A DNA stretch of 64,000 nt from Hymenobacter radiodurans (GTDB lineage: Bacteria; Bacteroidota; Bacteroidia; Cytophagales; Hymenobacteraceae): NCBI RefSeq assembly GCF_004355185.1, contig NZ_CP037922.1, positions 1,116,001-1,180,000 of the forward strand, given 5' to 3'. Numbering within the stretch: the first letter of the stretch is position 1; the number at the start of each line of letters is the position of its first letter. A program made the position numbers and the translations under genes. This document shows positions 1 to 64,000 of the stretch, piece by piece. Under the pieces are notes generated by a model, which searched no databases, was not told the DNA's origin, and worked only from the letters and a program-made list of their open reading frames with translations.

Positions 1-238
1 ACCGCCCAAAACGGCCGGTATTCTCCTTTTTGTTTTTGTATAACGCTTGGTGTAGCTTGCCCGTCAGCTCATTCAGGTACTGCGTGGTCGTGGAGTCGGG
101 GTAGAAAGTACGCGCGTACGATAGATCGTCGGTGAGTTCTACAAAGCGCGCCGCCAGCTCATCCGGATCGGTGGTGGGCTGACTGGTATAGCGTTGCCAC
201 TTCTGGGTATTTTGCCGCAAAAAAACCGCTTCACGCAT
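1..238 (-). CDS. SpoIIM-like (DUF95) integral membrane protein, N-terminal part
   Basis: The reverse strand reads open from an ATG at 238 to the window edge (79 codons). The start MREAVFLRQNTQKWQ and the segment ELTDDLSYARTFYP match, from memory, the N-terminal cytoplasmic part of Bacteroidota proteins annotated as stage II sporulation protein M. These are multi-pass membrane proteins, and the name does not imply sporulation in this phylum. The membrane segments would lie beyond the window edge. It is divergent from the RDD-family membrane protein at 376, a pairing common in this phylum. The 137-base spacer should hold both promoters. The start is uncertain because there is no clear ribosome binding site. 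Confidence 0.75.
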   Translation of the reverse strand, partial: MREAVFLRQNTQKWQRYTSQPTTDPDELAARFVELTDDLSYARTFYPDSTTTQYLNELTGKLHQALYKNKKENTGRFGR

Positions 239-375
239 ACTGGTTAAAGGGCAGCTAAAGAGAAAGTAAGAATAGTTGGAAGCGGCAACACGCGGCGGCG
301 GGCACTCTGGCAAATATATTGATTATCATCAGCGGGCCGTACGGACGGTGCCTGTTGTTTTGCACTTTTTTTAGC

Positions 376-1113
376 ATGCGCACCATTCAGGTTCAAACCC
401 CCCAGAACGTCACCGTCGAGTATGAAATCGGGGGCATTGGCGACCGCATCTTGGCGGCCCTCATCGATTACCTTGTCCTCTTCGTTTGGGGAGTAGTGTG
501 CTTTGGGGTCGGAGCAGTGTTGCTGAGGACAGCATCAATCTCAAAAGCTGGAAATAGCTTAACGGTATTCTTAATTGCTTTTCTGGTCGGGATTCCATGG
601 GTGTTTTATCACCTGCTCAGCGAAATATTCCTGAATGGCCAAAGCATCGGTAAGCGTGCCCGCGACCTAAAAGTTATTCGCCTTGATGGCACCCAGCCTG
701 GCCTGGGTGACTATTTCTTGCGCTGGCTCCTGCGCCTGATTGATATCAGCCTGATGTCGGGCGCGGTGGCGGTTATCACCATTCTGATTAATGGTAAAGG
801 CCAACGCCTCGGCGACCTGGCGGCTGGCACTACCGTCGTGCGCGTTAAAGCCAGTACACGGCTGGATGAAACCATCATGCTGCCCGATGCTAACTATCAG
901 GTAGTATTTCCGCAGGCGGCTAGTCTCACTCCCGAAGATATTACGCTTATTCGGCAGCTCTTTCAGCAAGGCATGCAGCGTCAGAACTATCTGCTAATTA
1001 ATGAAGTAGCCAATAAAGTAAAGAGCATAGCGGGAATCAGAACCGATTTACAGGATGAGCCTTTCCTACGCACCGTGCTCCGCGACTACGCCCACCTGCT
1101 AAATCAGGTATAA
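376..1113 (+). CDS. RDD family membrane protein
   Basis: A 245-residue protein beginning MRTIQVQTPQNVTVEYE, followed by GDRILAALIDYL, the usual opening of RDD proteins (Arg-Asp-Asp membrane proteins of unclear transport-related function). Three hydrophobic segments lie at about residues 25-50, 60-82 and 114-138. The conserved GKRARDLKVIRLDG loop sits between the second and third, and QRLGDLAAGTTVVR follows the third. The last 80 residues are soluble. An upstream TTG at 319 would add 19 residues, but the ATG at 376 fits the family start better. Five bases after the stop comes a CTGGGGGGCTTTTT tract, one copy of the dispersed motif, and then a true terminator. Confidence 0.85.
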   Translation: MRTIQVQTPQNVTVEYEIGGIGDRILAALIDYLVLFVWGVVCFGVGAVLLRTASISKAGNSLTVFLIAFLVGIPWVFYHLLSEIFLNGQSIGKRARDLKVIRLDGTQPGLGDYFLRWLLRLIDISLMSGAVAVITILINGKGQRLGDLAAGTTVVRVKASTRLDETIMLPDANYQVVFPQAASLTPEDITLIRQLFQQGMQRQNYLLINEVANKVKSIAGIRTDLQDEPFLRTVLRDYAHLLNQV

Positions 1114-1234
1114 GCTGGCTGGGGGGCTTTTTAGCAAACCACCTGACGTCATCAAGCACCTGGCGAAAGAGGGAATGATTTAGGTTAATTATCATAACTG
1201 TTACCAGCCAGATACACTTGGTATATATCCTAGT

Positions 1235-1272
1235 AAAAAAGCCCCCAGAGACGTTTCTGGGGGGGCTTTTTT
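1235..1272. terminator. bidirectional terminator between convergent genes
   Basis: An A6-GCCCCCAGA arm pairs with TCTG(7)C-T6 across a 6-base loop. The left arm has five C and the right seven G, so the stem is slightly unequal. It serves the RDD gene on + and the nitrilase fusion on -. Confidence 0.85.
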
Positions 1273-1291
1273 GCTAGGATGTCAGCAGAAG

Positions 1292-6499: not shown

Positions 6500-7453
6500 T
6501 TAGCCCCCCACTAAGTGCTGTCGAGCCGCATCGGCGTCCTTGGCCAATTGCGCCTTCAGCTCATCCAAACCCGTAAATTTCTGCTCATCACGCAGGCGGG
6601 CTATCAGCTGTATGGTCAGCGGCTGGGCGTATAAGTCGCCCGAGAAATCCAGCAGATGTACTTCAATGGTCTGCGCTAAATTGCCCCCCACGGTAGGGCG
6701 CACCCCGATATTGAGCATGCCCTGCTCTACATCGCCGGCGGCAGTGGTAGCCATTACGGCGTACACACCCTGAGCCGGCACCAGCTTAGAGTCCTCTGCC
6801 AGCTCCAGATTGGCGGTAGGAAAACCGATAGTGCGGCCGAGCTGCTTACCGCGTACAACAGTGCCAGTCAGGGAGTAAGAGTAACCGAGGTGGCGGTTGG
6901 CGGTGGCAATGTCGCCGCTAAGCAGGGCGCGGCGGATACGAGTGCTGCTTACCCCAACCGCGTCCACGTCTTCGCGCGGAATCTCTTCTACTTCCAGCCC
7001 GTAGCGGGCGGCGTTTTTGCTGAGGTATTCAAAGCCTCCTTCGCGGTTTTTGCCAAACCGGTGGTCATAACCAATCACCAGCTTTTTAGCGCCTACGGTG
7101 CGCAAGAGGAGTTGCTGAATGTATTCCTCGGAGGTCAATTGTGCGAATTCGCGGGTAAAGGGCACAATGAGCAGGTAATCAACGCCAAAGTGTTCGAGGC
7201 GCTCAATTCGCTCATCCAGAGTGGAAAGCAATTGCAAGTCGAGCGGCTCGGGGTGCGTGGGCGGCGGGTCCAGCACTAGGCGCGGGTGAGGCCAGTAGGT
7301 AATGACCACGGCGGGGCCGCCACTTTGCCGAGCCACTTCCAGCAGCCGGTGCAGAATTTTCTGGTGCCCTACGTGTACGCCATCGAAGGTACCGCTCGTT
7401 ACGACGGCTTGACCTAGAAACGGGAAGTGCGCCGGGTCACGAAAAACTTGCAT
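6500..7453 (-). CDS. ribF: bifunctional riboflavin kinase/FAD synthetase
   Basis: A 317-residue cytoplasmic enzyme converting riboflavin to FMN and then FAD. The N-terminal nucleotidyltransferase domain (about 1-180) has GTFDGVHVGHQ at 21-31 and the GYDHRFGKNREG motif. The C-terminal riboflavin kinase domain (about 185-310) has GKQLGRTIGFPTANL with the PTAN signature. Length and domain order are standard. It lies 11 bases after truB in the direction of transcription, so truB-ribF is probably cotranscribed. The last codons and stop fall on a copy of the dispersed C6 motif (6503-6510), with another at 6683-6690 inside the gene. Confidence 0.96.
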   Translation of the reverse strand: MQVFRDPAHFPFLGQAVVTSGTFDGVHVGHQKILHRLLEVARQSGGPAVVITYWPHPRLVLDPPPTHPEPLDLQLLSTLDERIERLEHFGVDYLLIVPFTREFAQLTSEEYIQQLLLRTVGAKKLVIGYDHRFGKNREGGFEYLSKNAARYGLEVEEIPREDVDAVGVSSTRIRRALLSGDIATANRHLGYSYSLTGTVVRGKQLGRTIGFPTANLELAEDSKLVPAQGVYAVMATTAAGDVEQGMLNIGVRPTVGGNLAQTIEVHLLDFSGDLYAQPLTIQLIARLRDEQKFTGLDELKAQLAKDADAARQHLVGG

Positions 7454-8295: not shown

Positions 8296-9080
8296 ATCAA
8301 TTGCAGATCAATACCCAACCCTATCATTATCAGAATAATAACGCCGATGCCAATGCGATAGATGCCGAAAGACCGGAAACCAAAGCGCGAAACGAAGTTT
8401 ACAAACGAATTGACCGCCAATAGCGCTACCACAAACGCCACCACGTTGCCAAAGGCCAGTACTTGCAAATCGCCGGGCTGGAGCGGGGTGATTTTGTAAG
8501 CTTTATAGAGTTGATACGCAGTAATAACAAACATGGTAGGCACCGCCAGCAGAAACGAAAAGTCGGCAGCGGACCGGCGGTCGAAGCCCTGGCTAAGACC
8601 ACCCACAATGGTGGCCGCCGAGCGCGACACGCCCGGAATAAGGGCGATGCACTGAAACAACCCTATTTTAAACGCCTGCTTGAGGTTTGGCGTCGTCACT
8701 TGCTTACGCTCTCCACTGAACCACTGATCAACAAACAGTAGAATAATGCCCCCCAGAACCAGGGAAATGGCTACTACCGTCACGCTTTTCAATAATTCGG
8801 TGATTACGTCTTTCAGCACGAAGCCCAGAATGCCAAATGGAATGAAGGCAACGGCCAGCTTGAGATAAAAATCGAAGCTCTGCAAAAAGCGGCGCCAGTA
8901 CAGCGCAACCACCGACAGAATAGCCCCAAACTGAATGGAGGTAATGTATACTTCCGTAAATGGAGCCTGCCCGATACCGAGCAGATTGGCCACAATAATC
9001 ATGTGGCCGGTGCTTGATACCGGTAAAAACTCCGTCAGACCCTCCACAATAGCGAGGATCAGCGCATGCCAATAATTCAT
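8292..9080 (-). CDS. uppP: undecaprenyl-diphosphate phosphatase
   Basis: An integral membrane enzyme (262 residues) of the BacA/UppP family. It recycles undecaprenyl pyrophosphate to the monophosphate for peptidoglycan and other envelope polymers; members also confer bacitracin tolerance. Both signature motifs are intact: [14 protein letters not shown] at 13-26 and [10 protein letters not shown] at 149-158. Multiple hydrophobic helices span the protein. It overlaps truB by four bases and follows the DUF3098 gene after a 3-base gap, so ftsX-DUF3098-uppP-truB-ribF reads as one operon. Confidence 0.96.
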
Positions 9081-9083: not shown

Positions 9084-9407
9084 TTAACGCTTATAAGTAG
9101 GGCGCGCCGCCGGGGTAGGAACCGCTACTGGTGGCGCGACGCTGGCCGTTGAGGCCGCCTCCACTGAAATTGTCTCGGTGGGAGTCGAAATTTGCCCCCC
9201 AGGCTTGGCCATGATGGCAAAAAACTCAATTACAAACCCGACAACCAATAAAATGGGACCGAGTGTGATGCCCATAAACCCAAGGCCGTAGTCCGCAGTA
9301 TCGAGGGTCATGGTGATAAAGCCCGCTACCAATACGGCCAAGCCTATAAACATGAGCCGATAATTACGGGGCCCAAATGCGAAATGGGAAGTGGGGCGTT
9401 GTTCCAT
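9084..9407 (-). CDS. DUF3098 family small membrane protein
   Basis: About 107 residues from the ATG at 9407 (MEQRPTSHFAFGPRNYR). Two membrane helices at about residues 17-37 and 44-66 carry the GLAVLVAGF and LGPILLVVGFVIEF patterns of DUF3098, a family I associate with Bacteroidota. The function is unknown. Its constant place next to ftsX and uppP hints at an envelope role. The C-terminal 35 residues are a Thr/Val/Ala/Pro tail that begins at a copy of the C6 motif (9194-9201, read as PGGQI). A start at 9428 would add seven residues. Confidence 0.85.
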   Translation of the reverse strand: MEQRPTSHFAFGPRNYRLMFIGLAVLVAGFITMTLDTADYGLGFMGITLGPILLVVGFVIEFFAIMAKPGGQISTPTETISVEAASTASVAPPVAVPTPAARPTYKR

Positions 9408-10366: not shown

Positions 10367-10486
10367 GCCGCAAAGGTAGGATTAGCAATTAGCAATGAAC
10401 GCAATTACCCAATTTGAATTCGAAAAAAGCCCCCCAGGACCATCACAACGCAATCGTAGCCTTTCTCGATACAGCATAAATGCCGC

Positions 10487-13400
10487 TTACATAATGGTGC
10501 GAGGATCATCGTCGACGATGATGGCTTCGCGGGCTTTGCGGGCGGCTTCGTCGCGGCGACGGACGCGCTTACGGGCAAAAAGCTCCTGTAGCGAGTCAAA
10601 TTGCTCCGTATGCAGCAAGCTGACGGCCGCGCGGGGTTGGTTGATGGTTTCTAAGTCGCGGGGCGTAGTCTGGTAGCGGAGGCGAGCCCGAAAACGGCCG
10701 TCAGCCTGGAGATAGTATTCTAGGCTTAGGTCGCCGAGCAGGGATGTTTGGGCCGTCTGATCGATGTCGCCGGAACCTGGTACGGTGCCCAAGTTGGTGG
10801 AATTGGTAAAGCCCCCTTCGCGGGTCACGCGCAGCCGGCCATTCATAAAGCTGTAACTCAGGCGCACTTGCAACGCCTGAAGCTGCTCTTGGGAAAGCCC
10901 GTTGAGGTTGAAGTCAATCTCCAGGTTCTGGTCAATTTGAGAGGTGAGCAGACCCAGTTGCGTCGAAAGAACTTGGCCCAAGCTGTTGCCCACCGTATTG
11001 TTGCTGCCGCTCAAGGAAAGCTGCGCGAAAGAGCCGGGGGGCGAAAGCTGCTTGAAGACCAGTAAGCTGAATACTTGGCGGTTCAGCTCCTGCTCATCAT
11101 TGCGCAAAGAGTTCGTAAACGAAGCCAAATCGCCCTCCAAAGCGGAAGGAGCATCATTAAACTCAAGCCCTAGCTGAATGGCCGGTAGCAGCAACGGGCC
11201 CGTCAGGTTCATAACGGCCGTAACGGGAACCACCGCGCCCGCGCTGGGAGTAGCCGTGCCGAGCACTGGGGCCAATGACGTGCGCTGGGTGTAAGCAGCC
11301 GTTACGTTCATCTGGCCGTCCAATGGGTTGCCGTTCCAGGAAATGGTGCCGCCCGGCCGGACCACAAATTCCTTATTAATCAGGCCTTGCAAGGTGAAAT
11401 TATAAGCCCCCCGCACGATTTCAATCTGCCCGTACATATTGAATTCGCCGCGGGTATCCACGTTTAGGCGCAACTGACCCACAGCCGTGCCCCGAATTAC
11501 GTCGCCAGTGCTTTCGTCGAGAATAATCTCCACGTAAGCATCCTCGGTTACTGTCAGGTTGAAGTTGAGCTGCAGGCCCGAAAGATCCACGCGGCCAGCC
11601 GCTGCCGCTACGATGGGCACGGTGGAGGTGGTATCAGTAGGCAGATTACGATTCACAAACTTGATATAGCTGGCCTGCTCGGCTTTGGCTGCATTATCGA
11701 GGGGGAGCGAAACCCGGGTGCCGGCCTCGCTGCGTGCCGTAACGTTCACGGTTAAGTTATCGACGGGGCCGAATACGCGCGCCTCGCCCGTGCCGTAAGC
11801 GCGGCCGAAGTAGAGCTCGTTTTCCTTGCGGGTAGTATTGAGTAGCTGGAGCTTTCGGAAATCGGCACTCAGATTAAGCACCATGTTCTGAAAGCCTTGG
11901 TGTCGAATCTCCCCGTCGAGCGTGCCGGTATTGCCAAACACATCCCGCAGATTCACGTCCCGGAAGACAATACGGTCTTCGCGGAATGAGATGCGGTCGG
12001 TGAACCGGTAGGTAGTGCCCAGGTAGATGAACTTGAAGCGGCCATTACTTACATCCACATCGCCCACAAGATTGGGCGCGGCAAGCGGACCAGTCAGCCG
12101 CAGCCGACCAACGGCCGTGCCACGCATATTGTCGAAGAGCGTGCTTAGGAGCGGCTCCGCTATTTTCACCGGTGCACTATCCAGTACCGCGGTAAGGTCG
12201 AGCTGGCGGATTGGCTCGCGCGGCGCGACGGTGCCTGTCACTGTAAGTACCCGCTGTTGGCTGTTCATCACATCTAGGTTCACCCCCAGCTTACTGGTGG
12301 TATTATCCCAGTCGCTGCTGCCGGTGACGTTGCCGATCAGGATATCATCAAACCGAAGCGAATCGACGGCCAGCGAGCTATTAACAACCAAGGCTCCAAA
12401 AACGCCACTTACGGTTCCTTGCGCGTTAGCTACTCCCGTAACATTCTGCTTAGTGAGGGAGCTAAGCGTGGCCAACTCCAGATTCTGAACAGCCAGCTGT
12501 AAGGTTTTGGCCGGATCGGTGGAAATGAAACCCTGGGCACTCACTTGTTGAGCGCCATTCGAAAGAGTCAGGCTGCGAATGTCAATCTCTTTGCCTCCAT
12601 TAGAAATCAAGACTACGTTTTCAGGCGCCAGCGTCCAGTCTTTGCCCAACAGGTTGACGCCCGACTGCCGGAATATCACCTGCACGGCTTGTGGTAAAAA
12701 AGCCACTGAGCCATTAATTGCCCCCCGGTTGGTGGTGCCGGTCTGGGCGAGCGAAGTCGAAAAATTAATCTTGTCCTGATCCCAGACGCCTTCCACGTAG
12801 AAGTTCTCCGTCTCCTTCAAGAGCGGAAGTTTTTGCTTTGCGGAAGTGATGTTAGCCTGCGCGAGTATTTCGGGTTGATAGGGCAGCTTGGAGGTGAGCA
12901 GTTCCATCGACGTATTTATGGCCCGAATGCTATCGTAGCGCAGGCTGTCAAATTGCCCGGCGAGCGTAAAAATAGAAGTGGGACCATTGCGAAAAGAACC
13001 GTCAACTCGTGAGTAGTCGGATATCTCCAGCTTTGGCACAAATAGCTGAATAACCGGATTCGCACGCTTCAGATAAAGATCTAAGTCGATAGCATACTCA
13101 GGAATTGCCCCCTGACGCTTCCGGCGGTAGTAGTTAGCGGTTTCAGTGTCGTTGCTCTCGAAGTTGAGCTGATACTCCTTGATGAGCGTTTGTACGTCGC
13201 GGGCTACGGTCGTGAAATTGAAGTCGCCGTTGGCCGTAAGATTCAATACTTCGGAGCGCACGGCCACGTTGCGCTGCCCATTCTGGCGTTGGCTTACAAT
13301 ATCGAGCGTATCGATGGCCACGTTGCGGCCGGCGTAGCCTACTTTAGTTTCGCGCAGGATAATGCGGCCAATCAGGTCATCGAGCTTCAAGCCTTGGAAA

Positions 13401-15055
13401 CGCAGATCCGCTTTGGTGGCAACAGTAACGGCCTGATCGGTGAGGCCGAGGGCGCGCAGATCGGCGCGGCGTACCTGCGCGCGCACGTCGAAGGCTTGGC
13501 GGGCTTTGTTCAGGTCTACGCGGCCGTCGGCGGATATTTGCAGGGCAGGGTCATTCACAGCCAATTTACCCTCAAAGGTTTCGCGGCTGAACTGGCCATT
13601 GGTGGTGATGTTGCGGAGGCGGTAACCTTTCAGCCAAATGCTTTGCACCGTGGCATTGGCGCGCAGGCGGGCCCCTTCCGGCGTAAACCCAACGCCCTCT
13701 ACCCGGCCGCTGAAGGCAATGTCGCGCACGGTGCTCTGGTCGCCCAGAAACTTGCCCAGCTGGAAGCCCGTTGTTTTTACTTGGCCTTCATAAGTAGAAT
13801 AGCGAGGATCGGTTTTGAACTTGATGTTCACGTCCGACACCACGTTGCCAAGAGCAGTATTGAAAGAGCCGTTAGCGACGAAGTCGTTATAGAAGCCCAG
13901 AAATTGCCCTTTGAGCTGCACGGTACCTAAGCGCTGCACATAAGCCCAACCCTTCGCAGGTACGAATTTGCGGATGTCGCGCCCATCAATTACGGAGGGC
14001 TGCAAGCGCATTTCCACGAAGCTTTCCTTCAGGTTGGGCAGCCCTTCCACGTTGATGTTGCCCACCACGTGCGTGTTTTGCCCGTAGCGCACATCAAGGT
14101 TGCGGGTAGTAAAATTGGTGACGTAGCCTTTGGCCTCGCCGGAGAACAGCACCGTTTCGTTTAGGTCGCGGAGCTGGGGGGCAAAATGGGCGATGTCATC
14201 GGAGAAAAGTCGGGTGGGTCCCAGCCGCGCCGTTACGCGCACCGAATCGTTGAAGTGCGTGAAGTTGAGAAAGCGCTTATAATCGAAACGTACGTAGTCT
14301 TTGAGGTAGCTGCGGCCCACGCGCAGATCGGTGTTGGCAAACTCCCAGTAGGTGGGCGCAAACGTCATGTCAGTGTCCCAGTGCTGCACGCGGGTTTTCG
14401 AAGGCGTTTCCACGGCACGCATATCCCGAATTCGGGTGATGATGGTGTCGCCGTTCATTTTGATGCCCGAGAAGTCAGCATAGATGCTGTCGACCTGCAT
14501 GTGCGCGTAATCGATGCCATATTTGACGCGCGGCTGGTTCTGTCTCTCCAGCACAAAGCGGCCGTTGCGGAGCCCAACGCTTTGAATCTGAAAATCGAAG
14601 GGCTTCTTGACTTTGGTGGTGTCGGTGGGGCCGAGAAGACGGCGCACAGCGGATACAAACTGACTTAGGTTGGTAGAGTCGGGTGCGTCGGCGTAGGTGA
14701 CTAGGGCAAAACGCGGCTCATTTAGCACGAGTTGGCCCACGTGCAGATGGCGCGGATTTAACAGCGAAAACAGCTGGATGTCCGCTTCTGCCTGCCCAAT
14801 GTGAAACAGCTCGCCTCCGCGCCGGTCCAGCACCTGCACATTCTGGAGCAGCACCCGCGAAAACGGCCGCACATCTACCCGCCCGATGCTAACGCGCTGA
14901 CCCAGCTTATCCGACAAAAATGTGGCTGCTCGTTGTGCTACCCGCGTCTGCACGCTTGGTATCCGCAATGCCACCAACACCGTGCCCACAGCCAGCACCA
15001 CAAGCAGGAGCAGCCCCAGCAGGATTTTGAGCAGTACGGAGATAAAACGGGGCAC
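10487..15055 (-). CDS. tamB: translocation/assembly module TamB-like protein (DUF490)
   Basis: A very large protein (1522 residues) with an N-terminal signal anchor at about residues 8-30, then long beta-rich AsmA/TamB-type repeats. The C-terminal DUF490 domain is recognisable by GYNFTLQG-like and REGGFTNS-like strands. TamB proteins span the periplasm and are linked to outer-membrane protein assembly and lipid transport. The TamB partner TamA is not in the window. The last residues are basic (RKRVRRRDEAARKAREA). It is divergent from tsaD across a 305-base spacer, a common Bacteroidota arrangement. Several copies of the C6 motif lie in the gene (11035, 11406, 12720, 14175), used in different frames. 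Confidence 0.9.
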   Translation of the reverse strand: MPRFISVLLKILLGLLLLVVLAVGTVLVALRIPSVQTRVAQRAATFLSDKLGQRVSIGRVDVRPFSRVLLQNVQVLDRRGGELFHIGQAEADIQLFSLLNPRHLHVGQLVLNEPRFALVTYADAPDSTNLSQFVSAVRRLLGPTDTTKVKKPFDFQIQSVGLRNGRFVLERQNQPRVKYGIDYAHMQVDSIYADFSGIKMNGDTIITRIRDMRAVETPSKTRVQHWDTDMTFAPTYWEFANTDLRVGRSYLKDYVRFDYKRFLNFTHFNDSVRVTARLGPTRLFSDDIAHFAPQLRDLNETVLFSGEAKGYVTNFTTRNLDVRYGQNTHVVGNINVEGLPNLKESFVEMRLQPSVIDGRDIRKFVPAKGWAYVQRLGTVQLKGQFLGFYNDFVANGSFNTALGNVVSDVNIKFKTDPRYSTYEGQVKTTGFQLGKFLGDQSTVRDIAFSGRVEGVGFTPEGARLRANATVQSIWLKGYRLRNITTNGQFSRETFEGKLAVNDPALQISADGRVDLNKARQAFDVRAQVRRADLRALGLTDQAVTVATKADLRFQGLKLDDLIGRIILRETKVGYAGRNVAIDTLDIVSQRQNGQRNVAVRSEVLNLTANGDFNFTTVARDVQTLIKEYQLNFESNDTETANYYRRKRQGAIPEYAIDLDLYLKRANPVIQLFVPKLEISDYSRVDGSFRNGPTSIFTLAGQFDSLRYDSIRAINTSMELLTSKLPYQPEILAQANITSAKQKLPLLKETENFYVEGVWDQDKINFSTSLAQTGTTNRGAINGSVAFLPQAVQVIFRQSGVNLLGKDWTLAPENVVLISNGGKEIDIRSLTLSNGAQQVSAQGFISTDPAKTLQLAVQNLELATLSSLTKQNVTGVANAQGTVSGVFGALVVNSSLAVDSLRFDDILIGNVTGSSDWDNTTSKLGVNLDVMNSQQRVLTVTGTVAPREPIRQLDLTAVLDSAPVKIAEPLLSTLFDNMRGTAVGRLRLTGPLAAPNLVGDVDVSNGRFKFIYLGTTYRFTDRISFREDRIVFRDVNLRDVFGNTGTLDGEIRHQGFQNMVLNLSADFRKLQLLNTTRKENELYFGRAYGTGEARVFGPVDNLTVNVTARSEAGTRVSLPLDNAAKAEQASYIKFVNRNLPTDTTSTVPIVAAAAGRVDLSGLQLNFNLTVTEDAYVEIILDESTGDVIRGTAVGQLRLNVDTRGEFNMYGQIEIVRGAYNFTLQGLINKEFVVRPGGTISWNGNPLDGQMNVTAAYTQRTSLAPVLGTATPSAGAVVPVTAVMNLTGPLLLPAIQLGLEFNDAPSALEGDLASFTNSLRNDEQELNRQVFSLLVFKQLSPPGSFAQLSLSGSNNTVGNSLGQVLSTQLGLLTSQIDQNLEIDFNLNGLSQEQLQALQVRLSYSFMNGRLRVTREGGFTNSTNLGTVPGSGDIDQTAQTSLLGDLSLEYYLQADGRFRARLRYQTTPRDLETINQPRAAVSLLHTEQFDSLQELFARKRVRRRDEAARKAREAIIVDDDPRTIM

Positions 15056-15360
15056 GGGAAGTAAATGAGCGAGAAGGAATGTAACGACGAAGATGCTGCT
15101 TTTCAGCTAATCGTTGTCCGGCCTTGGCTGTAGGCTGGGAGAAGGGATAAAAAAGCCCCCCGCTTCGCCACAAGCGCCACTGGTAGTAAAAGCTGAACTT
15201 GAGTACGCGTCAGACCATTTAACAAGTCAGAGGTTTAATGATTTAAACGACCTTTGTCTTAAAATATGCGGCCACAGACAAAAGTAATCCGTGCCCGTTT
15301 GATTTTTTATGTTGTGTTTCCGGCCCAATGCACCACGAGGGCTTTGATTTTCTGCACGCT
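15056..15360. other. divergent intergenic region tamB/tsaD, 305 bases
   Basis: Holds promoters for tamB (-) and tsaD (+). Visible items are a variant motif AAAAAGCCCCCCG at about 15151-15162 and a minus-strand TACTTTTG box (15279-15286). No additional gene is supported. Confidence 0.5.
15279..15286 (-). promoter_or_regulatory. candidate -7 box for tamB
   Basis: The minus strand reads TACTTTTG, matching the Bacteroidota TAnnTTTG consensus. It lies about 220 bases before tamB, so it would give a long leader. No clear -33 TTG at the usual distance was found. Confidence 0.3.
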
Positions 15361-18367: not shown

Positions 18368-18508
18368 AATAACGCTAAGCCAAAGCATGCTGCTATTTCT
18401 CTAAAAAAAGCCCCCCACGGCCCTAGGCTAAAGGAAACTTAACTCAGCGGCTGTTGTTAATGCGCTAAGAATCACCTAGCTTTCGCTAACCGGATTCTCC
18501 CTGAGCGT

Positions 18509-46164: not shown

Positions 46165-46324
46165 GTTGGGGGGCAAATTAGCGCCGTCGATACGATTGAA
46201 CAGCACTTAAAGCAAAGATGATAGGCTGGCTCAAGCAATAGAGTAGGCAAGGCCAATGGCTACAGTTGCTTGACTGTGAAGCCGCAATAATACCACATGA
46301 AGTAAAGGCAGGCGCAAAAACTTC

Positions 46325-50084: not shown

Positions 50085-51284
50085 ATGCAGCTCACTATTA
50101 CCCCGGCAATTGTTCTTCTGTTTGCGGTGCTGGCCCAGGCAGTATTCGCGGCGGGACTGCTGTGGTTTGCCCCCCACAACCAACTCCCAAACCGGTTTCT
50201 GGCGTTGCTGCTGCTGGCTATTGCCCTCTGGGTGCTGGACGGATTGTGGCGCGCCGCAGGACTGTATGGCCAGAATGCCAACTGGTATTTTACCCCAATT
50301 TACTATTCCCTAGCCTTTGGGCCGCTGCTCTACTTTTATGTGCAAAGTCTAGTAAGTCAGCCCTTTCAGTTGCGTAGGCGGCATCTGTGGCACTTTGTGC
50401 CCGTACTGGTGCAGGCAGTGCTTTACTGGTGGCTCCGGTTCGAACCTTACCAAACGCGGCTGTGGTTTTGGGAGCAGGTGCATCAGCCATACACGTACCG
50501 GATAGAGTTTATCGGCACCTGGGTGTCGCTGATTATTTATCTGGGTTTGAGCTTGCAGTTGTTGCGGCGCTACCGGCGCTGGTTACCCGACAATTTCTCG
50601 GAACTGTCGCAGCTGCGCCTGAAGTGGTTGCGGGTGCTTTTGCTGGCGCTGGGCGTGGTGAGCGTGCAGTGGCTGGTGGAGGTAGTGCTGCGCGAATTCT
50701 TTCATCTGTACTACGCCTACGATTATTCTACCTGGCTGCTAGGCGGGGTGGTGCTGTTGATTGGCGTGGTAGGCCTGCGCCAGGCCGACATGCGAGCTGT
50801 GCATTTTGCGCCCCTGCAAGCGGCTGAAAAAGCCCCCCAGCCAGTAGGCGAAACGCTATTGCCTGGGGAGACGAGCGGGGGGCTTTTTTCTACCTCCTCC
50901 AATGCGGTTGACGTAGCGCCCACGGTGCGCCAGGCGCCGGCTGCGGTTGATGCGGCGGTGTTGGAGCGCATTCGTCAGGCGCTGGAAGACGAGCAGCTGT
51001 ATCTGAACCCCACGCTCACGCTAGCCGAATTGTCGGCGCATACGGGTCTGGCGCCGCGACTAATTTCATTCACCGTTAATAATGGCTTTGGGCAGTCTTT
51101 CAACGACCTGGTGAATGGCTACCGGGTGGAAGCCGTGAAGCGCCGCCTCGCTAATCCTGCCGATGTGGCCCGCCTCACGTTGCTGGGAATTGCCTTTGAA
51201 TGCGGCTTCAATTCCAAGACCACCTTCAACCGAATTTTTAAGCAATTCACCGGCGTGGCACCCAGCGAATTTGCCCCCCAGTGA
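50085..51284 (+). CDS. membrane-bound AraC family transcriptional regulator
   Basis: A 399-residue protein. The first 235 residues hold about seven hydrophobic helices (from AIVLLFAVLAQAVFAAGLLW to LLGGVVLLIGVVGL), a sensor type common in Bacteroidota. After a Pro/Thr-rich linker the last 105 residues form an AraC helix-turn-helix domain, with LAELSAHTGLAPRLIS and AFECGFNSKTTFNRIFK as its two helices. The start at 50085 (MQLTITPA) puts the first helix at the N-terminus. The linker DNA contains a terminator-like hairpin, and the stop codon follows a motif copy (FAPQ-stop). It may control the downstream + strand genes, which is inference from position. Confidence 0.88.
   Translation: MQLTITPAIVLLFAVLAQAVFAAGLLWFAPHNQLPNRFLALLLLAIALWVLDGLWRAAGLYGQNANWYFTPIYYSLAFGPLLYFYVQSLVSQPFQLRRRHLWHFVPVLVQAVLYWWLRFEPYQTRLWFWEQVHQPYTYRIEFIGTWVSLIIYLGLSLQLLRRYRRWLPDNFSELSQLRLKWLRVLLLALGVVSVQWLVEVVLREFFHLYYAYDYSTWLLGGVVLLIGVVGLRQADMRAVHFAPLQAAEKAPQPVGETLLPGETSGGLFSTSSNAVDVAPTVRQAPAAVDAAVLERIRQALEDEQLYLNPTLTLAELSAHTGLAPRLISFTVNNGFGQSFNDLVNGYRVEAVKRRLANPADVARLTLLGIAFECGFNSKTTFNRIFKQFTGVAPSEFAPQ
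50827..50888 (+). terminator. terminator-like hairpin inside the AraC regulator gene
   Basis: AAAAAGCCCCCC (50827-50838) is exactly complementary to GGGGGGCTTTTT (50877-50888), followed by another T, with a 38-base loop that includes a smaller AGGC/GCCT hairpin. It lies in frame within the coding region of the linker. This is unusual; it may be chance use of two motif copies. Confidence 0.5.
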
Positions 51285-51943: not shown

Positions 51944-52010
51944 GCCAGGCTACTGCTTCCGGGGGGCTTTTTTCCTGTCACAATCGAAACTTTTACTTAT
52001 AAACACGACC

Positions 52011-53830: not shown

Positions 53831-53877
53831 CCGCTTGCCTTTCCAAAATTGCCCCCCAGTTCCTTCCGCTCATACGT

Positions 53878-54456
53878 ATGGCGCGCATTATTGACAGCTA
53901 TGAAATTGTGGATGCTCCTGACCCGACCAGTTGGCGCGCGTGGCTGGTAGCACACTATGCCAGTTCGCCGGGTGTGTGGTTGGTGCTGTACAAAAAAGCC
54001 AGCGGGCGGCGGCAAATGACCTACGCCGAGGCGGTGGAAGAGGCGCTGTGCTACGGGTGGATTGATAGCCTGCCGCGCTTGCGGGATGAGAATTGCTTCC
54101 ACTTGCTATTCACGCCTCGCAAGCCTCGTAGCGTATGGTCGAAGGTGAATAAACAGCGCATAGAAACGCTACTGGCCGACGGCCGCATGACGCCTGCGGG
54201 CTGGAGCAAGATTGAAGTTGCCCGCCAGGATGGCAGCTGGGACACACTTAACGCCAGCGACGCGCTGGAAATGCCCCCCGAACTCGCAGCTGCGCTGGCT
54301 GCCAATGTAGTGGCCCAACACAACTTTGCCGCCTTTCCGCCTTCCGCCAAACGGCAAATCATTCAGTATCTGAATAGCGCCAAACGCCCAGAGACGCGCC
54401 AGAAACGAGTGGAGCAGATAGTAGCCTTGGCGGCCGAAAATAAGCGGCTCAGTTAA
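53878..54456 (+). CDS. YdeI/OmdA family protein
   Basis: A 192-residue cytoplasmic protein. The features YKKASGRRQMTYAEAVEEAL, CYGWIDSLPR and TPRKPRSVWSKVNKQR are typical of the YdeI/OmpD-associated (OmdA) family, linked elsewhere to antimicrobial or bacteriocin resistance, with no established chemistry. A motif copy (53851-53858) lies 20 bases before its start. Ends at a terminator convergent with the aldo/keto reductase. Confidence 0.9.
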   Translation: MARIIDSYEIVDAPDPTSWRAWLVAHYASSPGVWLVLYKKASGRRQMTYAEAVEEALCYGWIDSLPRLRDENCFHLLFTPRKPRSVWSKVNKQRIETLLADGRMTPAGWSKIEVARQDGSWDTLNASDALEMPPELAAALAANVVAQHNFAAFPPSAKRQIIQYLNSAKRPETRQKRVEQIVALAAENKRLS

Positions 54457-54501: not shown

Positions 54502-54553
54502 AAAAAGCCCCCAGCCAACGCTTTGGGAAAGACGTTGACTGGGGGGCTTTTTT
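54502..54553. terminator. bidirectional terminator between ydeI-like and aldo/keto reductase genes
   Basis: AAAAAGCCCCCAGCCAACG pairs with CGTTGACTGGGGGGCTTTTT (one bulge/mismatch). The left arm has C5, the right G6. Confidence 0.9.
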
Positions 54554-55704: not shown

Positions 55705-58506
55705 TTAGTCCGGGCGAACCAGTACCAGCCGCTGATGCTGTCCCAGCATTTCGGCAGTATATACCCCGCCCGGCAGACGACGACCGTTCTGGTCTTCCGC
55801 ATTCCAGGATACCTCATGAACCCCCATTTCGGTGGCTGCTGCGAAAGTGCGCACTACCTGGCCCTGGGCGTCGCGAATACGAAGCGTGTACTGGCCAGGG
55901 GTGTGTAGCGTATAATTCAGGGTTGTGCGGCCGTCAAAAATCCGGTCGCTGGGTGCTGCTAGCGTTAAGCGGTCGGGAGCGGCGGCTGTATAAAAAGTAT
56001 TCAGGCGCAGGCCCTGTATAGCAACGGTAAGCGGCTGGTTTTGAAAGCGTACCCGCACCTGCAAAGTTTGGGTGGCAGTATCGTAACGCCAGGTATCAGC
56101 AGGCGCCGGCTGGCCAGTTACGAGCACAGCGGCAGGCGCGGCAGCTACACGCGGAATCAGCAACTCGATAATGCGGCTGGGGGGCATTTTGGCGTAGCCC
56201 TGGCCACTGGTGCTTATGCGAATATCGGTTTGGGTAGCAGAAGTAGCGCCCGCAAAAGCAAGGAGCTGAAATTGCCCCCCAGCCATCGCCTGCGCCGATT
56301 TTCCGTCATCTTCATACACGGTAAAGCTGGATTGGGGAACAGCATAATCAGCGTAGAATCGCACGCGCAACGTGTCGGTATGGTAGCGAGCCGTGGTGTT
56401 GACGTAAGGAGCCAATGGCAGAAAAGCACCGGCGCGCACGAGTAGCGGCACGCGCTCTAGTGGGGCGTTGCGCCCTACTATTTGCCTCCCAGTTAGGGTT
56501 TCATGAGAGTAGAAATCAATCCAAGTGCCGGCAGGCAGTAGCACGTTGCGGCGGCGCTGCCCCGGCTGTACTATGGGCGCTACCAACAAATTAGGGCCGA
56601 GTAAATATTGATCGTTTACGTTGCCCAATTGCTCATTATCCAGCCCAGAAGCTGCCTCGTAGTTCATGGGGCGGGCTAGTGGCGCGCCGGTCTGGGCATT
56701 CTGCCAAGCTAGCGTGTACAGGTACGGAAGCAGTTCGTAGCGCTGGCGGGCGGCGTTGCGCACGATGCTTTTGTAAGGCTCTGGGTAATAGTAGGGCTCG
56801 GGTGGCACGCCTTCGCCGTGGGGACGCATAATGGGGCAGAGCGAAGCCATTTGCAGCCAGCGCGTGTACAGTTCCGGGTCGATGGGGCCCACGCAGAAGC
56901 CGCCGGCATCGGAATGCATATAGCCCACGCCGCCCATGCCTACGCCCAGCATAATGGGAATCTGGGCCTGAAAGCCCGACCACGACCGGTTAATATCGCC
57001 CGACCAGGGAAACACGCTGTGGCGTTGCATACCCGCCCACCCGGAGCGCGCCAGATTGAACAAGCGCTCTTGCGGATATTCCTGGGCGTAGTTCTCGGCA
57101 AAAATGCTGGCCCATGCCTGCCCGTAGGCATTGTGTATCTGGCGGGTGGAGCCCGTGACGTGGTGCATCTCGGTGGGATGGTTTTCGGGCTCACCCAAGT
57201 CACTCCACCAGCCGCCGACGCCTTCCGTTTTACGCTTTTTGTAGTATGACCATAGCCATTCGTGGGCGCTGGGCTTAAACATATCAAGCAACGAGGCCGG
57301 CCCGGCCCAGAACGAGGCCACCGTGAAAGGCCGGCCCACCGAATCGGTGCCAATCAGGCCCTGGGTGCGCACCACGGAGTCGTTGCGGGAAGCGCGCATC
57401 ACATAAGGCTCCGAAATCAGAATGGTCTTAACGCCCACCGAGTCCAGATTGCGCATCATGGTGGCGGGCTTGGGAAATTTCTGGTAGTCCCAATCGAGGT
57501 TGCCCTGGTCTTTGGTAGTACCAAACCAGTACAGATCCAGCACCAGCGCATCCAGCGGAAATCCTTCGCGGCGCATGCGTTGAGCCACGGCTTCGGTCTC
57601 GGCTTGGGAGCGGTAGCCAAAGCGGCTCTGAATCAGGCCCAGTGCCCAGCGCGGAGGCAACGGCTGACGGCCGGTAAGCACCGTGTAGCGGTCCAGAATA
57701 ATGGCATATGAGTCGCCAGTTACGAGGAAGTAGCCCAGGTTGCGCAAGGCTTCGCCACCGTATTCCAGTACGCTCTTATTGGTGGCACCCAAATCGAGGT
57801 AGCCAGCCGTGTGGTTGTCGAAAAAAACCGCGTACCCCCGACTCGATACCACAACTGGCAGCGTTAAATTGAGGTTTTCGGTACCGTTCTGATAGGCATA
57901 ACGGGCTTGGTTATACAACTCCAGACGGCGGCCTCGGCGGTCAAGCGGCAAGGCCCGGGCACCGGTACCATAAAGCTGCTCGCCGGGCCGCAGCCGGAAG
58001 CTCACGCCTGTTTCACTTAAAGATGAGGTAGTTGCGCCGCGCTGAAAAGCCCCCCAAGCCTCCGTTGCTACGGTATCGGTACCTCGCAGCAGGTGCACTC
58101 TGAGCGGACGTTTGCTTACCGTTACGCGCAGATTTTCTGGTAGCTTCAGTTCCAGACTTTGCGCGGTTTCTCGCATACCCACTGCCAAATCAGCTGTAGC
58201 CGTCGTGACAACGCTAATGGAAGAATCGGGCTGAGTGGGGCGGCCTGCGGGAAAGTAGTCAACCCGCACGACGCCCGTAGCCCACGGGCGTACCCGTAGC
58301 GTCGCCCCGTCGGTAGCCCTGATGCTGAGTTGCCCGGCCGTGTACTGATGGGAGCGATACGCGGCAATGGAGCGAGCTAGAGCATTCGGCCTTGGAAATG
58401 GGTCGTTTGTAGGTGGCCCATCGTCGGTACGCTGCCCATAGCTAGGCAGGCTCAGCGTAGTGGAGAGCGAGAACAGAAGTAGGCAATAGCGTAAGCGTGG
58501 CAACAT
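55705..58506 (-). CDS. glycoside hydrolase family 31 (alpha-glucosidase/alpha-xylosidase type)
   Basis: A 933-residue exported enzyme; signal peptide about 1-25 (SLSTTLSLPSYGQ). The catalytic (beta/alpha)8 barrel has the nucleophile Asp436 in GGWWSDLGEPE and the acid/base Asp in FPWSGDINRSW. C-terminal beta domains follow. The last 95 residues (HTPGQYTLRIRDAQGQVV, SWNAEDQNGRRLPGGVY) resemble a FlgD Ig-like/type IX sorting domain, suggesting surface or secreted location. Substrate: terminal alpha-linked glucose or xylose. It may act with the branching enzyme and other glucan genes, but no glucan operon is visible. The ATG at 58506 gives the signal peptide. Confidence 0.9.
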   Translation of the reverse strand: MLPRLRYCLLLFSLSTTLSLPSYGQRTDDGPPTNDPFPRPNALARSIAAYRSHQYTAGQLSIRATDGATLRVRPWATGVVRVDYFPAGRPTQPDSSISVVTTATADLAVGMRETAQSLELKLPENLRVTVSKRPLRVHLLRGTDTVATEAWGAFQRGATTSSLSETGVSFRLRPGEQLYGTGARALPLDRRGRRLELYNQARYAYQNGTENLNLTLPVVVSSRGYAVFFDNHTAGYLDLGATNKSVLEYGGEALRNLGYFLVTGDSYAIILDRYTVLTGRQPLPPRWALGLIQSRFGYRSQAETEAVAQRMRREGFPLDALVLDLYWFGTTKDQGNLDWDYQKFPKPATMMRNLDSVGVKTILISEPYVMRASRNDSVVRTQGLIGTDSVGRPFTVASFWAGPASLLDMFKPSAHEWLWSYYKKRKTEGVGGWWSDLGEPENHPTEMHHVTGSTRQIHNAYGQAWASIFAENYAQEYPQERLFNLARSGWAGMQRHSVFPWSGDINRSWSGFQAQIPIMLGVGMGGVGYMHSDAGGFCVGPIDPELYTRWLQMASLCPIMRPHGEGVPPEPYYYPEPYKSIVRNAARQRYELLPYLYTLAWQNAQTGAPLARPMNYEAASGLDNEQLGNVNDQYLLGPNLLVAPIVQPGQRRRNVLLPAGTWIDFYSHETLTGRQIVGRNAPLERVPLLVRAGAFLPLAPYVNTTARYHTDTLRVRFYADYAVPQSSFTVYEDDGKSAQAMAGGQFQLLAFAGATSATQTDIRISTSGQGYAKMPPSRIIELLIPRVAAAPAAVLVTGQPAPADTWRYDTATQTLQVRVRFQNQPLTVAIQGLRLNTFYTAAAPDRLTLAAPSDRIFDGRTTLNYTLHTPGQYTLRIRDAQGQVVRTFAAATEMGVHEVSWNAEDQNGRRLPGGVYTAEMLGQHQRLVLVRPD

Positions 58507-58890: not shown

Positions 58891-59241
58891 ATGCAAGAGG
58901 AAAGCAAATCAACCGGTACTGCTCAGCTCGACGCTACTATTCAGGCTCTGCAAGGCGGCAACCTTGCTGGATTAGCCCCCCAGGCTGGCCCCAACATTCA
59001 GAGCTGGATCAGTACTCTGCAACACTCCAATAATGGTCAGCTCTCGGGTATTGCCTCGGAGCTGGAGCGCCTGAACGACGCGCTGTCGGGCAGCGCGCCC
59101 GACACAATGCAGGTGCAGCAGTCATTAAAAACGCTGGGCGAGCACACGCTACGCGCTGCCGAGTCGGCTGATCCCGGTTCTCAGGACAAAGTGCGCCAGC
59201 TCGGTCAGGCGCTTAGCGCGGCCGCTAGTCAGATTCATTAA
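58891..59241 (+). CDS. small helical protein, tandem paralog 1
   Basis: A 116-residue protein with no signal peptide, no membrane helix and no known domain. It is rich in Gln, Leu, Ser and Ala and should be mostly helical. Key pattern: LDATIQAL, a GG, then SWISTLQ, GIASELERLNDAL, PDTMQ, SLKTLGEHTLRAAESAD and an Ala/Gln-rich end. The gene at 59341 is clearly related (see there), so they arose by tandem duplication. A motif copy lies inside (58975, LAPQAG). The function is unknown. Confidence 0.75.
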   Translation: MQEESKSTGTAQLDATIQALQGGNLAGLAPQAGPNIQSWISTLQHSNNGQLSGIASELERLNDALSGSAPDTMQVQQSLKTLGEHTLRAAESADPGSQDKVRQLGQALSAAASQIH

Positions 59242-59340
59242 GCACAAATTTGCCCCCCAGAGATTGGCCCGACGCCGCAAAGGTGTCGGACCGATTTCCG
59301 GTACTCTGTTTTCTACTCTTTTCCGACGCCTTTCTCTGCT

Positions 59341-61748: not shown

Positions 61749-61767
61749 CCTAAACTCTAGTTGCGCT

Positions 61768-63809
61768 ATGAAAACTCCTGACCTTACTGTTGCCTCAACC
61801 GCTATCCTGCCCATCGTGCAGCAGGATTCTTGGCTCGAACCTTTCGAACCTGTGCTGCTGGCGCGGCAAGAGCGCCTGCGTCAGCGTTTGCAGGAAATTG
61901 AGCAATCGCATGGTTCGCTGAGCAAATTTGCCACCGCTCACCAACAGCTGGGCCTTAACTACGATGCTCGCCGTCGTGGCTATTGGTACCGGGAGTGGGC
62001 GCCGGCCGCAGAAGGCCTTTTTCTGGTTGGTGACTTTAACGGCTGGGACCGCGCTGCTACGCCCCTAAAGAAAGGCGAAAATGGTGTTTGGGAAGTGTTT
62101 TTATCCGATAAGGAGTACAAAGACCGGCTCACGCACTACAGCCGCTACAAAATACACGTCGTTACCCACCGGGGGCAAAAGACCGCCTGCCGGCTACGCT
62201 GCGGCGCGCCGTGCAGGACACCGAAACCAAAGACTACACAGGTCAGGTGTGGCGTCCCGAAGCGCCCTTTATCTGGACTGATCAGAAGTTTCGGATCAAT
62301 AATTATGTGCGCGAGCCCTTCATCTATGAATGCCATATTGGTATGGCCACCGAAGAAGGGAAAGTGGGCAGCTACCTGGAGTTTGCCGAAAAAGTGCTGC
62401 CCCGCGTGCAGGCTTTAGGCTACAATTGCTTGCAGCTTATGGCCGTAATGGAGCACCCGTATTACGGCTCCTTCGGCTACCATGTGGCCAATTTTTTCGC
62501 AGTATCGTCGCGGTTCGGCACGCCCGAGGAGTTGAAGCACCTGATAAACGAAGCGCATAACAGGGGCATCGCGGTGCTGCTGGACGTGGTGCATTCGCAC
62601 GCTGTGAAGAATGAAGCGGAAGGATTAGCTGATTTCGACGGCTCTGGGGGACAATATTTTCACGCTGGGCCCCGCGGCAACCACCCCGGCTGGGATTCTA
62701 AGCTATTCAATTACGGGCAGCCGGAGGTGCAGCAGTTTTTGCTCTCCAACCTGCGCTACTGGCTGGAGGAGTTTCACTTCGATGGCTTCCGCTTCGATGG
62801 CGTAACTTCCATGCTCTATCATCATCATGGTGAGGGCGTGGCATTTAGCTCTTATGCGCAGTATTTTGGTCCGGAGGCCGATGAAGACGCTATCTTATAC
62901 CTACAGCTGGCCTCCACGCTGGTGCAGGAAATAAAGCGCGGCGCTTTGCTTATTGCCGAAGATATGAGCGGCCTTCCCGGCTTATGCCGGCCCCTCAGCG
63001 AGGGTGGTGTCGGGTTCAATTATCGCTTGGGCATGGGCATTCCCGATTACTGGATTAAGCTGCTCAAGCACCGCCGCGACGAAGATTGGAACCTGGGTGA
63101 ACTTTGGTACACGCTCACCAATCGTCGCGTAGGGGAGAAAACCGTGGCTTACGCGGAGTCGCACGACCAAGCCTTGGTGGGAGACAAAACCTTGGCTCAC
63201 TGGCTTATGGATGCGGCCATTTACTCGCACATGAGTAAAAACGACCCCGACCCCGTGGTGGCTCGTGGTATGGCGCTGCACAAGATGATTCGCCTCATCA
63301 CACTAGCGTTGGGAGGCGAAGCCTACCTCACCTTTATTGGCAACGAGTTTGGGCATCCTGAGTGGGTCGATTTTCCCCGCCAAGGCAACGACTGGAGCTA
63401 CCACTACGCGCGGCGGCAGTGGTCGTTGGCCGATAACCCCGACCTTAAGTATCAGTACTTACTGGCCTTCGACAAGGCAATGATCGGCATGGCCAAATCG
63501 CGCCGTTTGCTGGCGGCTGCCCATGCCCATCTGCTCAACAACGACCCCGAAAATCAAGTCCTTATTTTCGAGCGTGGGGGGCTAATTTTTGTATTCAACT
63601 TCCATGTTGAGCGCAGTGTGCCAGACTACCGCTTCTTCGTGCCCAAGCCAGGTCGCTACCGGGTTGTTCTGTCCTCCGATTCGCCCCAATTTGACGGCTT
63701 CAATCGCGTGGATGATGCGTTGATTTATGAAACCTTCCAGGAAGATGAGGTAGACAAATTAAGCCTGTATGTAACCAGCCGCACGGCCTTGGTACTGGCA
63801 CGGGTATAA
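61768..63809 (+). pseudogene. glgB: alpha-glucan branching enzyme (GH13), one frameshift
   Basis: About 680 residues when repaired, close to the eukaryote-like branching enzymes. Frame 1 has the N-terminal CBM48-like domain (YWYREWAPAAEGLFLVGDFNGW). Frame 2 has the GH13 barrel with the nucleophile Asp in FHFDGFRFDGVTSM, the acid/base Glu in IAEDMSG and the third Asp in AESHDQALVGDK. At 62171-62175 CACCGGGGGCAAAAG should have G6; that gives HRGAKDRLPATLRRAV and one open frame. It forms alpha-1,6 branches in glycogen. The catalytic domain is intact, so the shift is probably an artefact. Confidence 0.88.
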
Positions 63810-63924
63810 TACTGGCTGGAAGTAGGCAGGTGGAAATGTGGGGGACAAATTGAACCTAAAATAGTGTCGCAAATGCCCCCTTACATTGTCGCATTTGCAC
63901 AGTTCCGTTCGCTGGGGTTGCTTT

Positions 63925-63932
63925 TATCTTTG
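63925..63932 (+). promoter_or_regulatory. candidate -7 box before the VOC gene
   Basis: TATCTTTG fits TAnnTTTG and lies 27 bases before the ATG at 63960. Upstream, GCAAATG (63869-63875) and CATTTGC (63892-63898) form an inverted repeat that could be an operator. Confidence 0.4.
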
Positions 63933-63959
63933 TTAGGTACTCCTTAAAACCACAACGTT

Positions 63960-64000
63960 ATGGCAACCCAGATCTTCGTAAACCTGCCCGTAAAAGACCT
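63960..64000 (+). CDS. VOC family protein, N-terminal fragment
   Basis: Only 13 full codons are visible: MATQIFVNLPVKD. This is the usual opening of VOC (vicinal oxygen chelate, glyoxalase-like) proteins in Bacteroidota. The rest lies beyond the window, so the subgroup cannot be told. Confidence 0.6.
   Translation, partial: MATQIFVNLPVKD

Follow-up and report, generated by a model that had tools for sequence, protein, structure and literature searches.

A highly iterated A-tract-GCCCCCCR word of one Hymenobacter clade, probably read by a protein and maintained at the DNA level

The 64-kb stretch of Hymenobacter radiodurans DNA analysed here (C2:1116001-1180000 of the 4.92-Mb genome, referred to as the window) carries many copies of a short word whose fuller form is WWWGCCCCCCR, the W side being a TpA-poor A-tract. 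The over-represented C6 word described in a first-pass annotation of the window is real and stronger than claimed, as WWWGCCCCCCR occurs 3015 times across the whole genome, compared with 51 occurrences of its reversed control. It is very probable that the word is read by a protein, here a putative one, and that it is maintained at the DNA level. As a whole, our data are best, if tentatively, explained by a protein-read recognition word that one clade of Hymenobacter holds as a label of self DNA.

Abundance and shape of the word

Within the window, GCCCCCCA is present in 34 copies (24 on the + strand, 10 on the - strand), one more than the 33 counted before, while the earlier figures of 24 copies followed by G and 12 further copies ending in G proved exact (GCCCCCCAG, n=24; GCCCCCCG, n=12). 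On both strands together GCCCCCC occurs 50 times, and G precedes 50 of the 55 C-runs of at least six, as expected from the earlier remark that C6 is nearly always preceded by G. The runs on the + strand (C5 28, C6 33, C7 1; G5 23, G6 19, G7 2) show an excess at a length of six. A third-order Markov model predicts 1.29 copies of GCCCCCCAG, of which 24 were found, and 0.27 copies of TTGCCCCCCA, of which 15 were found. Genome-wide, TTTGCCCCCCAG has 228 forward and 225 reverse copies (453 in total) and its reversed control none in either direction; the copies of WWWGCCCCCCR are split 1527/1488 between the strands.

When synonymous codons were shuffled within genes (100 rounds, 464 kb), means of 8.15 sense and 3.62 antisense sites were obtained, with maxima of 14 and 9. 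Observed were 104 sense and 113 antisense sites, that is 217 compared with about 12 expected. Chance, composition or codon use can thus be rejected as the source of the word, given the codon shuffle, the Markov count and the reversed-word controls. Both comparisons proposed with the first-pass annotation, one against composition and codon use and the other against scrambled words of equal composition, left the word far above expectation.

The four positions before the G are 94-96% A/T, with A favoured at -5 and -4 (464 kb, consisting of the window and 20 scattered stretches). At 274 of the 287 exact sites in a contiguous 464 kb the triplet before the G is AAA, AAT, ATT or TTT. A TpA step is found in 13 of these 287 W3 triplets (4.5%) compared with 36% of W3GCC contexts without C6, and in 7.8% compared with a background of 30% in two other carriers of the word, Hymenobacter sp. 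BT188 and H. roseosalivarius. The T-runs or A-runs noted earlier in front of the word therefore hold as far as the A/T side is concerned, but they take the form of an A-tract in which TpA is avoided. This is the rule for a rigid A-tract, and the avoidance of TpA suggests that the word is read in duplex DNA. On the other side of the C-run, a purine follows at 750 per Mb and a pyrimidine at 42 per Mb (240 kb of BT188 and H. roseosalivarius). One-base variants of GCCCCCC in the same setting occur at 0-71 per Mb each, most of them near the outgroup level; a few are raised, such as those with the last C changed to T (71 compared with 4 in the outgroup) and with the first C changed to T (21 compared with 1). 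Summed over all one-mismatch forms, the excess amounts to one third of the exact copies. According to the position table (464 kb), the word is non-palindromic.

Distribution, gain and conservation of the word

The 12-base form of the word is present in 445-533 copies in four of 120 Hymenobacter genomes and in 0-5 copies in the remaining 116. The four carriers are the window genome, H. qilianensis, sp. BT188 and H. roseosalivarius, in which WWWGCCCCCCR reaches 3015 (window), 2516, 3521 and 3143 copies (reversed controls 51, 39, 58 and 77). They thus now hold about 2,500-3,500 counted copies per genome, or approximately one per 1.4-2 kb. Thirteen other genomes have 16-57 copies (controls 13-92); for BT730 and BT18, which are the nearest outgroups, the numbers are 34 and 57 (controls 14 and 21). 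A ParB tree of 30 rows unites the carriers in a single clade (support 98/93), with one label change. A word common to the phylum is ruled out by a sample of 395 genomes, containing none of the three other carriers, in which the 13-mer form occurs 427 times in the window genome and 0-2 times in each of the other 394. The second contig (190 kb), which is probably a plasmid, has 14 copies compared with 538 in 824 kb of chromosome (a set in which a 4-kb overlap was counted twice and stretches L013 and L014 were left out). This is about nine-fold fewer per kb, and above the outgroup level; depletion of the word on putatively horizontal DNA was found for this one replicon.

Alignments within the clade, which cover the 64-kb window and 80-kb stretches of its relatives, revealed that window sites are intact at 30 of 37 positions in BT188, 19 of 22 in H. 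roseosalivarius and 22 of 32 in H. qilianensis, where random 11-mers are intact in 31%, 23% and 24% of cases, respectively. None is intact in the outgroups BT730 (0/18), cavernae (0/17) and BT18 (0/18), so that the comparison of positions among relatives suggested earlier speaks for sites kept within the clade. Within the clade, identity is 94-96% at motif positions and 81-83% in the flanks; towards the outgroups the relation is reversed, with 62-65% at motif positions and 73-75% in the flanks. If C5 is counted as present and each genome is used as source, 65-86% of the sites are common within the clade, compared with 0 or 1 site found per comparison towards the outgroups. Outgroup bases at the sites are mostly 1-6 substitutions away from the word, with an indel at 2-5 sites per comparison. 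As an 8-mer, GCCCCCCA is intact between H. roseosalivarius and BT188 at 7 of 11 positions (random, 31%).

The same pattern is found in codons for unchanged residues. In BT188, 93 of 97 such codons under the motif (96%) are identical, compared with 128 of 200 in the flanks (64%); the corresponding numbers are 55/62 and 81/129 for H. roseosalivarius and 60/69 and 102/152 for H. qilianensis. In the three outgroups the relation is again reversed (32-35% under the motif, 51-58% in the flanks). KLPPD of ParB and ELPPN of CTP synthase illustrate this, as the outgroup residues are equal and the codons were switched to the word. Other motif sites involve a change of residue between outgroups and clade (FTTQ, FASQ or FATQ to FAPQ; PGPQI to PGGQI). 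In comparison with the outgroups, 72-79% of residues are identical under the motif and 79-82% in the flanks. The synonymous identity throughout the clade, together with the codon differences in the outgroups, suggests that the word was gained mostly by substitution on the stem branch and has been maintained at the DNA level since then. Selection or spread at the DNA level, for which the first-pass annotation had argued, is strongly supported by the codon shuffle, the synonymous conservation and the gain by substitution in place.

Many C5 forms are present in the assemblies of the window genome and H. qilianensis. At the 20 C5 sites of the window, a C6 run is found in BT188 at 14 of 18 aligned sites, in H. 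roseosalivarius at 7 of 12 and in H. qilianensis at 4 of 15; 80 kb of BT188 contain four copies of W3GC5R and 67 of W3GC6R. We read the C5 excess as homopolymer under-calling in what are presumably long-read assemblies, with real slippage being possible, and the true copy numbers of the window genome and H. qilianensis may therefore be somewhat higher than those counted. Sequencing error was rejected as the source of the word; it may account for lost copies only. The yidC gene (38873-40719, - strand) is a single frame in BT188, H. roseosalivarius and BT730, but is broken into two in the window and H. qilianensis. A C5 run at 39791, just before the break, is common to the window and H. qilianensis and corresponds to C6 in BT188 and H. 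roseosalivarius. As the split adjoins GCCCCC where these two have GCCCCCC, assemblies may lose genes at the word.

Gene calls were made with a simple longest-ORF picker. In the contiguous 464 kb, called genes contain 215 of the 287 exact sites (0.52 per kb), and the other 72 lie between genes (1.39 per kb). The genic sites are divided into 104 sense and 111 antisense ones, which bears out the earlier statement that both strands are used; the accompanying claim of all reading frames needs correction, since sense phase 1, which requires xGC CCC CCR, is almost empty (3 of 104 sites). Spacing is random (CV 0.94-0.98), even spacing was looked for in 464 kb and not found, and 178 of 393 genes have a C5/C6 site where a Poisson distribution predicts 178.6. 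Of 271 genic C5/C6 sites, 38 lie within 100 nt of a stop and 29 within 100 nt of a start, and 124 are sense and 147 antisense; no clear gene-end bias is evident in these counts, which come without a null. Along the chromosome no strand or replichore bias was seen, and the plot against replication direction proposed earlier gave no clear polarity, both results being rough because GC skew is weak.

Many intergenic copies are arms of terminator-like inverted pairs. In a pattern test without folding, 92 of 153 intergenic C5/C6 sites and 9 of 270 coding ones had, within 80 bp, a facing G4-7C arm with three A/T after it. The terminator-like role considered earlier thus explains part of the sites only, and hardly the coding ones, whose rare facing arms are at odds with the inverted repeat and T-run of a Rho-independent terminator. 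The pair at 31599 is the only one listed below that has an outgroup alignment; the inverted repeat found there in BT730 and cavernae is of unrelated sequence. The sites are as follows (window coordinates; motif, WWWGCCCCCCR).

1120..1130, - strand, motif
6500..6510, + strand, motif
6680..6690, + strand, motif, genic (GG codons)
8745..8755, + strand, motif, genic
9191..9201, + strand, motif, genic (GGQ)
10426..10436, + strand, motif between called ORFs
11403..11413, + strand, motif, genic
12717..12727, + strand, motif, genic
14175..14185, - strand, motif, genic (FAPQ)
15152..15162, + strand, motif between called ORFs
15426..15436, - strand, motif in tsaD-like ORF
16324..16334, + strand, motif near end of tsaD-like ORF (FAPQ)
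18407..18417, + strand, motif
19113..19123, + strand, motif
21230..21240, - strand, motif
23827..23837, + strand, motif
28461..28471, - strand, motif common to all four clade members
31020..31030, - strand, motif common to all four clade members; GCGGGCC in BT730 and cavernae, GGGGGCC in BT18
33383..33393, + strand, motif common to all four clade members
34504..34514, - strand, motif in parB
34718..34728, - strand, motif in parB (KLPPD; residues unchanged in three outgroups, codons changed)
40212..40222, + strand, motif in yidC
42089..42099, - strand, motif in pyrG (ELPPN; residues unchanged in three outgroups)
42818..42828, + strand, motif between called ORFs
45732..45742, + strand, motif, genic
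46167..46177, - strand, motif
48408..48418, + strand, motif
50166..50176, + strand, motif, genic
50829..50839, + strand, motif, genic
50876..50886, - strand, motif about 45 bp from the copy at 50829..50839, opposite orientation
51270..51280, + strand, motif
51960..51970, - strand, motif
53848..53858, + strand, motif
54270..54280, + strand, motif, genic
54540..54550, - strand, motif facing a C5 arm at 54507 (terminator-like pair)
56178..56188, - strand, motif, genic
56271..56281, + strand, motif, genic
58046..58056, + strand, motif, genic
58972..58982, + strand, motif, genic
59249..59259, + strand, motif
63575..63585, - strand, motif, genic
20221..20256, terminator-like inverted pair with C5 motif arms; in BT188 and H. 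roseosalivarius one arm C6, the other with C>T
26919..26953, terminator-like inverted pair with C5 motif arms; both C6 in BT188 and H. roseosalivarius
31593..31627, terminator-like inverted pair with motif arms, both C6 in BT188; repeats of other sequence in BT730 and cavernae
38824..38858, terminator-like inverted pair with motif arms

Possible readers and uses of the word

Strongly maintained words of this kind are otherwise familiar as uptake sequences and HIP1. Based on its shape and history we propose that a sequence-specific protein would recognise the duplex, namely the TpA-poor A-tract by its narrow minor groove shape and the adjoining G-C6-purine. The word would have arisen on the stem of the clade that comprises H. 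roseosalivarius, H. qilianensis, BT188 and the window genome, and spread via base substitutions wherever protein and terminator function tolerated it. If word-bearing DNA were preferentially taken up or recombined, the word would be both spread and maintained. Among possible uses we favour that of an uptake or recombination label, although with some reserve. With uptake sequences the word shares its copy excess, its occurrence in both orientations in genes and in inverted pairs, its restriction to one clade, its lower density on the second contig and the presence of the DNA import channel ComEC in its hosts. According to PMC3630211, the DUS of Neisseriaceae and the USS of Pasteurellaceae likewise have thousands of copies, are asymmetric, lie on both strands, are tolerated in genes and form inverted intergenic pairs and clade-specific dialects; facing pairs between genes are described there for DUS. 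The likeness to DUS concerns such general features. The word differs in that it is found in Bacteroidota, that some sister lineages have palindromic words, and that no clear gene-end bias is seen in the counts given above; PMC2346458 reports uptake sequences to be biased towards gene ends (Pasteurellaceae) or towards one favoured orientation in reading frames.

Several points weigh against an uptake or recombination label. It rests on a putative reader and a presumed uptake bias. ComEC was present in 13 of 13 genomes searched, including genomes without the word, and is therefore not discriminating. Random spacing and a Poisson spread over genes mean that placement points to no particular use. 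Other Hymenobacter genomes have partly palindromic words, and uptake sequences are not known to be of that kind. Among the matches listed, no paper on natural transformation mentions Hymenobacter, and in the open-licence PMC literature no such word in Hymenobacter or Bacteroidota was found in the titles and abstract starts of the matches listed.

The main rival to a self-DNA label is the site of an architectural protein. A nucleoid-organising or chromosome-maintenance protein would bind the A-tract and GC6 all over the chromosome, and loss of a site would be selected against. The A-tract rule with the duplex reading it suggests, the random genome-wide spacing on equal strands, and a chromosome that is rich in maintained sites beside a second contig that is poor in them are all compatible with such a protein. 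However, the word is lacking in outgroups whose alignable DNA has 75% nucleotide identity, and a conserved core nucleoid protein would thus have changed its site within the genus. No candidate protein was found, none having been searched for, and a replichore polarity of the FtsK type was not clear in our rough test. Polarised octamers of the architecture-imparting or KOPS-like type are strand-biased, unlike the word. What these octamers have in common with it is that they are short words repeated genome-wide, as described in PMC5993296. On balance, we regard an architectural site as unlikely, though not markedly so. Lower still is the probability of a Chi-type recombination hot-spot octamer read by RecBCD or AddAB, with CTGGGGGGC as its G strand. 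Chi sites are short, asymmetric and over-represented, and Chi-like words differ between genera; the word conforms to this in being short and asymmetric, with one G-rich strand, and in being both lineage-specific and maintained. Unlike Chi sites, however, it shows no strand bias overall and none is evident along the chromosome, the avoidance of TpA where A and T are otherwise interchangeable would be hard to fit to a single-stranded reading, and the palindromic words of relatives would not be Chi-like. It is very improbable that the word has no cellular reader and is the preferred Rho-independent terminator stem of the clade, spilled into genes. The facing arms and the higher density between genes would agree with such an origin, but most exact sites are genic, 261 of the 270 coding C5/C6 sites lack a facing arm, coding sites occur on both strands and are conserved synonymously, and the inverted repeat at 31599 does without the word in BT730 and cavernae. 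A mutational or assembly artefact, by which homopolymer errors, mutation bias or codon use would yield C6, is next to impossible. The C5 runs of the window and H. qilianensis at C6 positions of BT188 imply that sequencing or real slippage touches the word, but either process removes copies and makes none, as the rarity of W3GC5R in BT188 documents; neither the codon shuffle nor the reversed-word controls reproduce the word, and exact copies far outnumber each of the one-mismatch forms.

A HIP1-like word, made and kept by DNA methylation and biased repair, is about as improbable as a Chi site. Elhai 2015 (PMC4390886) proposes methylation and biased repair as origin and upkeep of HIP1 in cyanobacteria and describes HIP1 and alternate HIPs as highly iterated words that replace one another by lineage, in which they resemble the word studied here. 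In agreement with this, other Hymenobacter genomes carry other words, several with CTAG palindromes, and an m5C methyltransferase is present in the other-word genomes of cavernae, fodinae and UV11 (and absent from seven further genomes of this sort that were searched). Moreover, H. qilianensis and H. roseosalivarius do have methyltransferases, with matches to PF01555, PF02384 and PF07669. By contrast, a profile search of the window genome and BT188 gave no match to PF00145, PF01555, PF02384 or PF02086. One weak match each to PF07669, the only methyltransferase among the five families searched, is an MmeI-like restriction-methylation protein, in which an MmeI methyltransferase domain is combined with a target-recognition domain. 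The two MmeI-like proteins are 84% identical overall, and their 50-residue blocks up to residue 1000 are 86-100% identical except for 36-62% over residues 600-850, which cover most of the recognition domain (approximately 690-867). Since the recognition domain has diverged and the word is common to both genomes, the pair should read different sites and is not expected to be the reader of the word. A methyltransferase reader common to all four carriers was thus not found among the five families, a result that does not extend to other families. Unlike HIP1, the word is non-palindromic and has an A-tract, two of its four genomes contain no methyltransferase of the searched families that would match it, and the methylation role considered earlier is disfavoured.

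The rise of the word from background to about 3,000 copies in one clade, within a genus that has other words in other lineages, makes gain, upkeep and replacement of HIP1-like or uptake words testable. Four sister genomes are available together with clear outgroups, many of the gains can be assigned to branches of the tree, and two genomes are nearly devoid of the five methyltransferase families searched. If the word is a self-DNA label, sequence-specific uptake or recombination would extend to Bacteroidota, and the word would provide a handle for transforming these bacteria.

Iterated words in other Hymenobacter genomes

Samples of 16-80 kb per genome revealed other iterated words in relatives. 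In 80 kb of cavernae, ACCTAGGT, a AACCTAGGTT-type palindrome, occurs 100 times on both strands (6.0 expected), and in crusticola 28 times (2.7 expected). CCTAGG is found 182 times in setariae (48.5 expected) and 166 times in Solirubrum (30 expected), and GGCTAGCC 52 times in BT559 (9.3 expected; this set pools L104, L215 and L216 with L108, a stretch of a different record) and 58 times in CA2-7 (5.9 expected). Further examples are CTAGGCCA (56, expected 4.0) and GGCCTAGGCC (12, expected 0.7) in fodinae, GGGGCCCC in nivis (120, expected 15.8), CCCTACCC in citatus (52, expected 4.8) and profundi (14, expected 1.4), and CCTACCCC in UV11 (63, expected 3.3). By the same 8-mer measure GCCCCCCA has 54 copies in BT188 where 5.3 are expected; as 8-mers, the other words are thus enriched to a similar degree. 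Iterated palindromes are GGCCTAGGCC (fodinae), GGGGCCCC (nivis) and GGCTAGCC (BT559, CA2-7), and the CCCTACCC words are asymmetric.

Conservation by position was found for CCTAGG between L106 and L108 (24 of 30 intact; random 6-mers, 48%) and for CCCTACCC between citatus and profundi (9 of 14; random, 40%). It was not found for GGCTAGCC (2 of 7; random, 38%), and ACCTAGGT is intact between neighbours at one of two sites, the only ones available. Mapped roughly on the ParB tree, the other words require at least two changes per type. It is conceivable, but on the doubtful side, that all of them belong to a self-DNA word system that is replaced by lineage, with A-tract-GCCCCCCR, CCTAGG, GGCTAGCC, GGCCTAGGCC, CCCTACCC or GGGGCCCC as its words, with a reader protein of its own and without a matching methyltransferase in the clade of the window. 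Such a system would amount to a label for uptake or recombination in Bacteroidota whose specificity changes fast.

Over-represented 10-mers such as GAGATGGTGA and TCACTGCTCA in citatus and UV11 resemble longer repeats. AACTGACA / AGCTAACA recur in many Hymenobacter ParB loci and are perhaps intergenic repeats.

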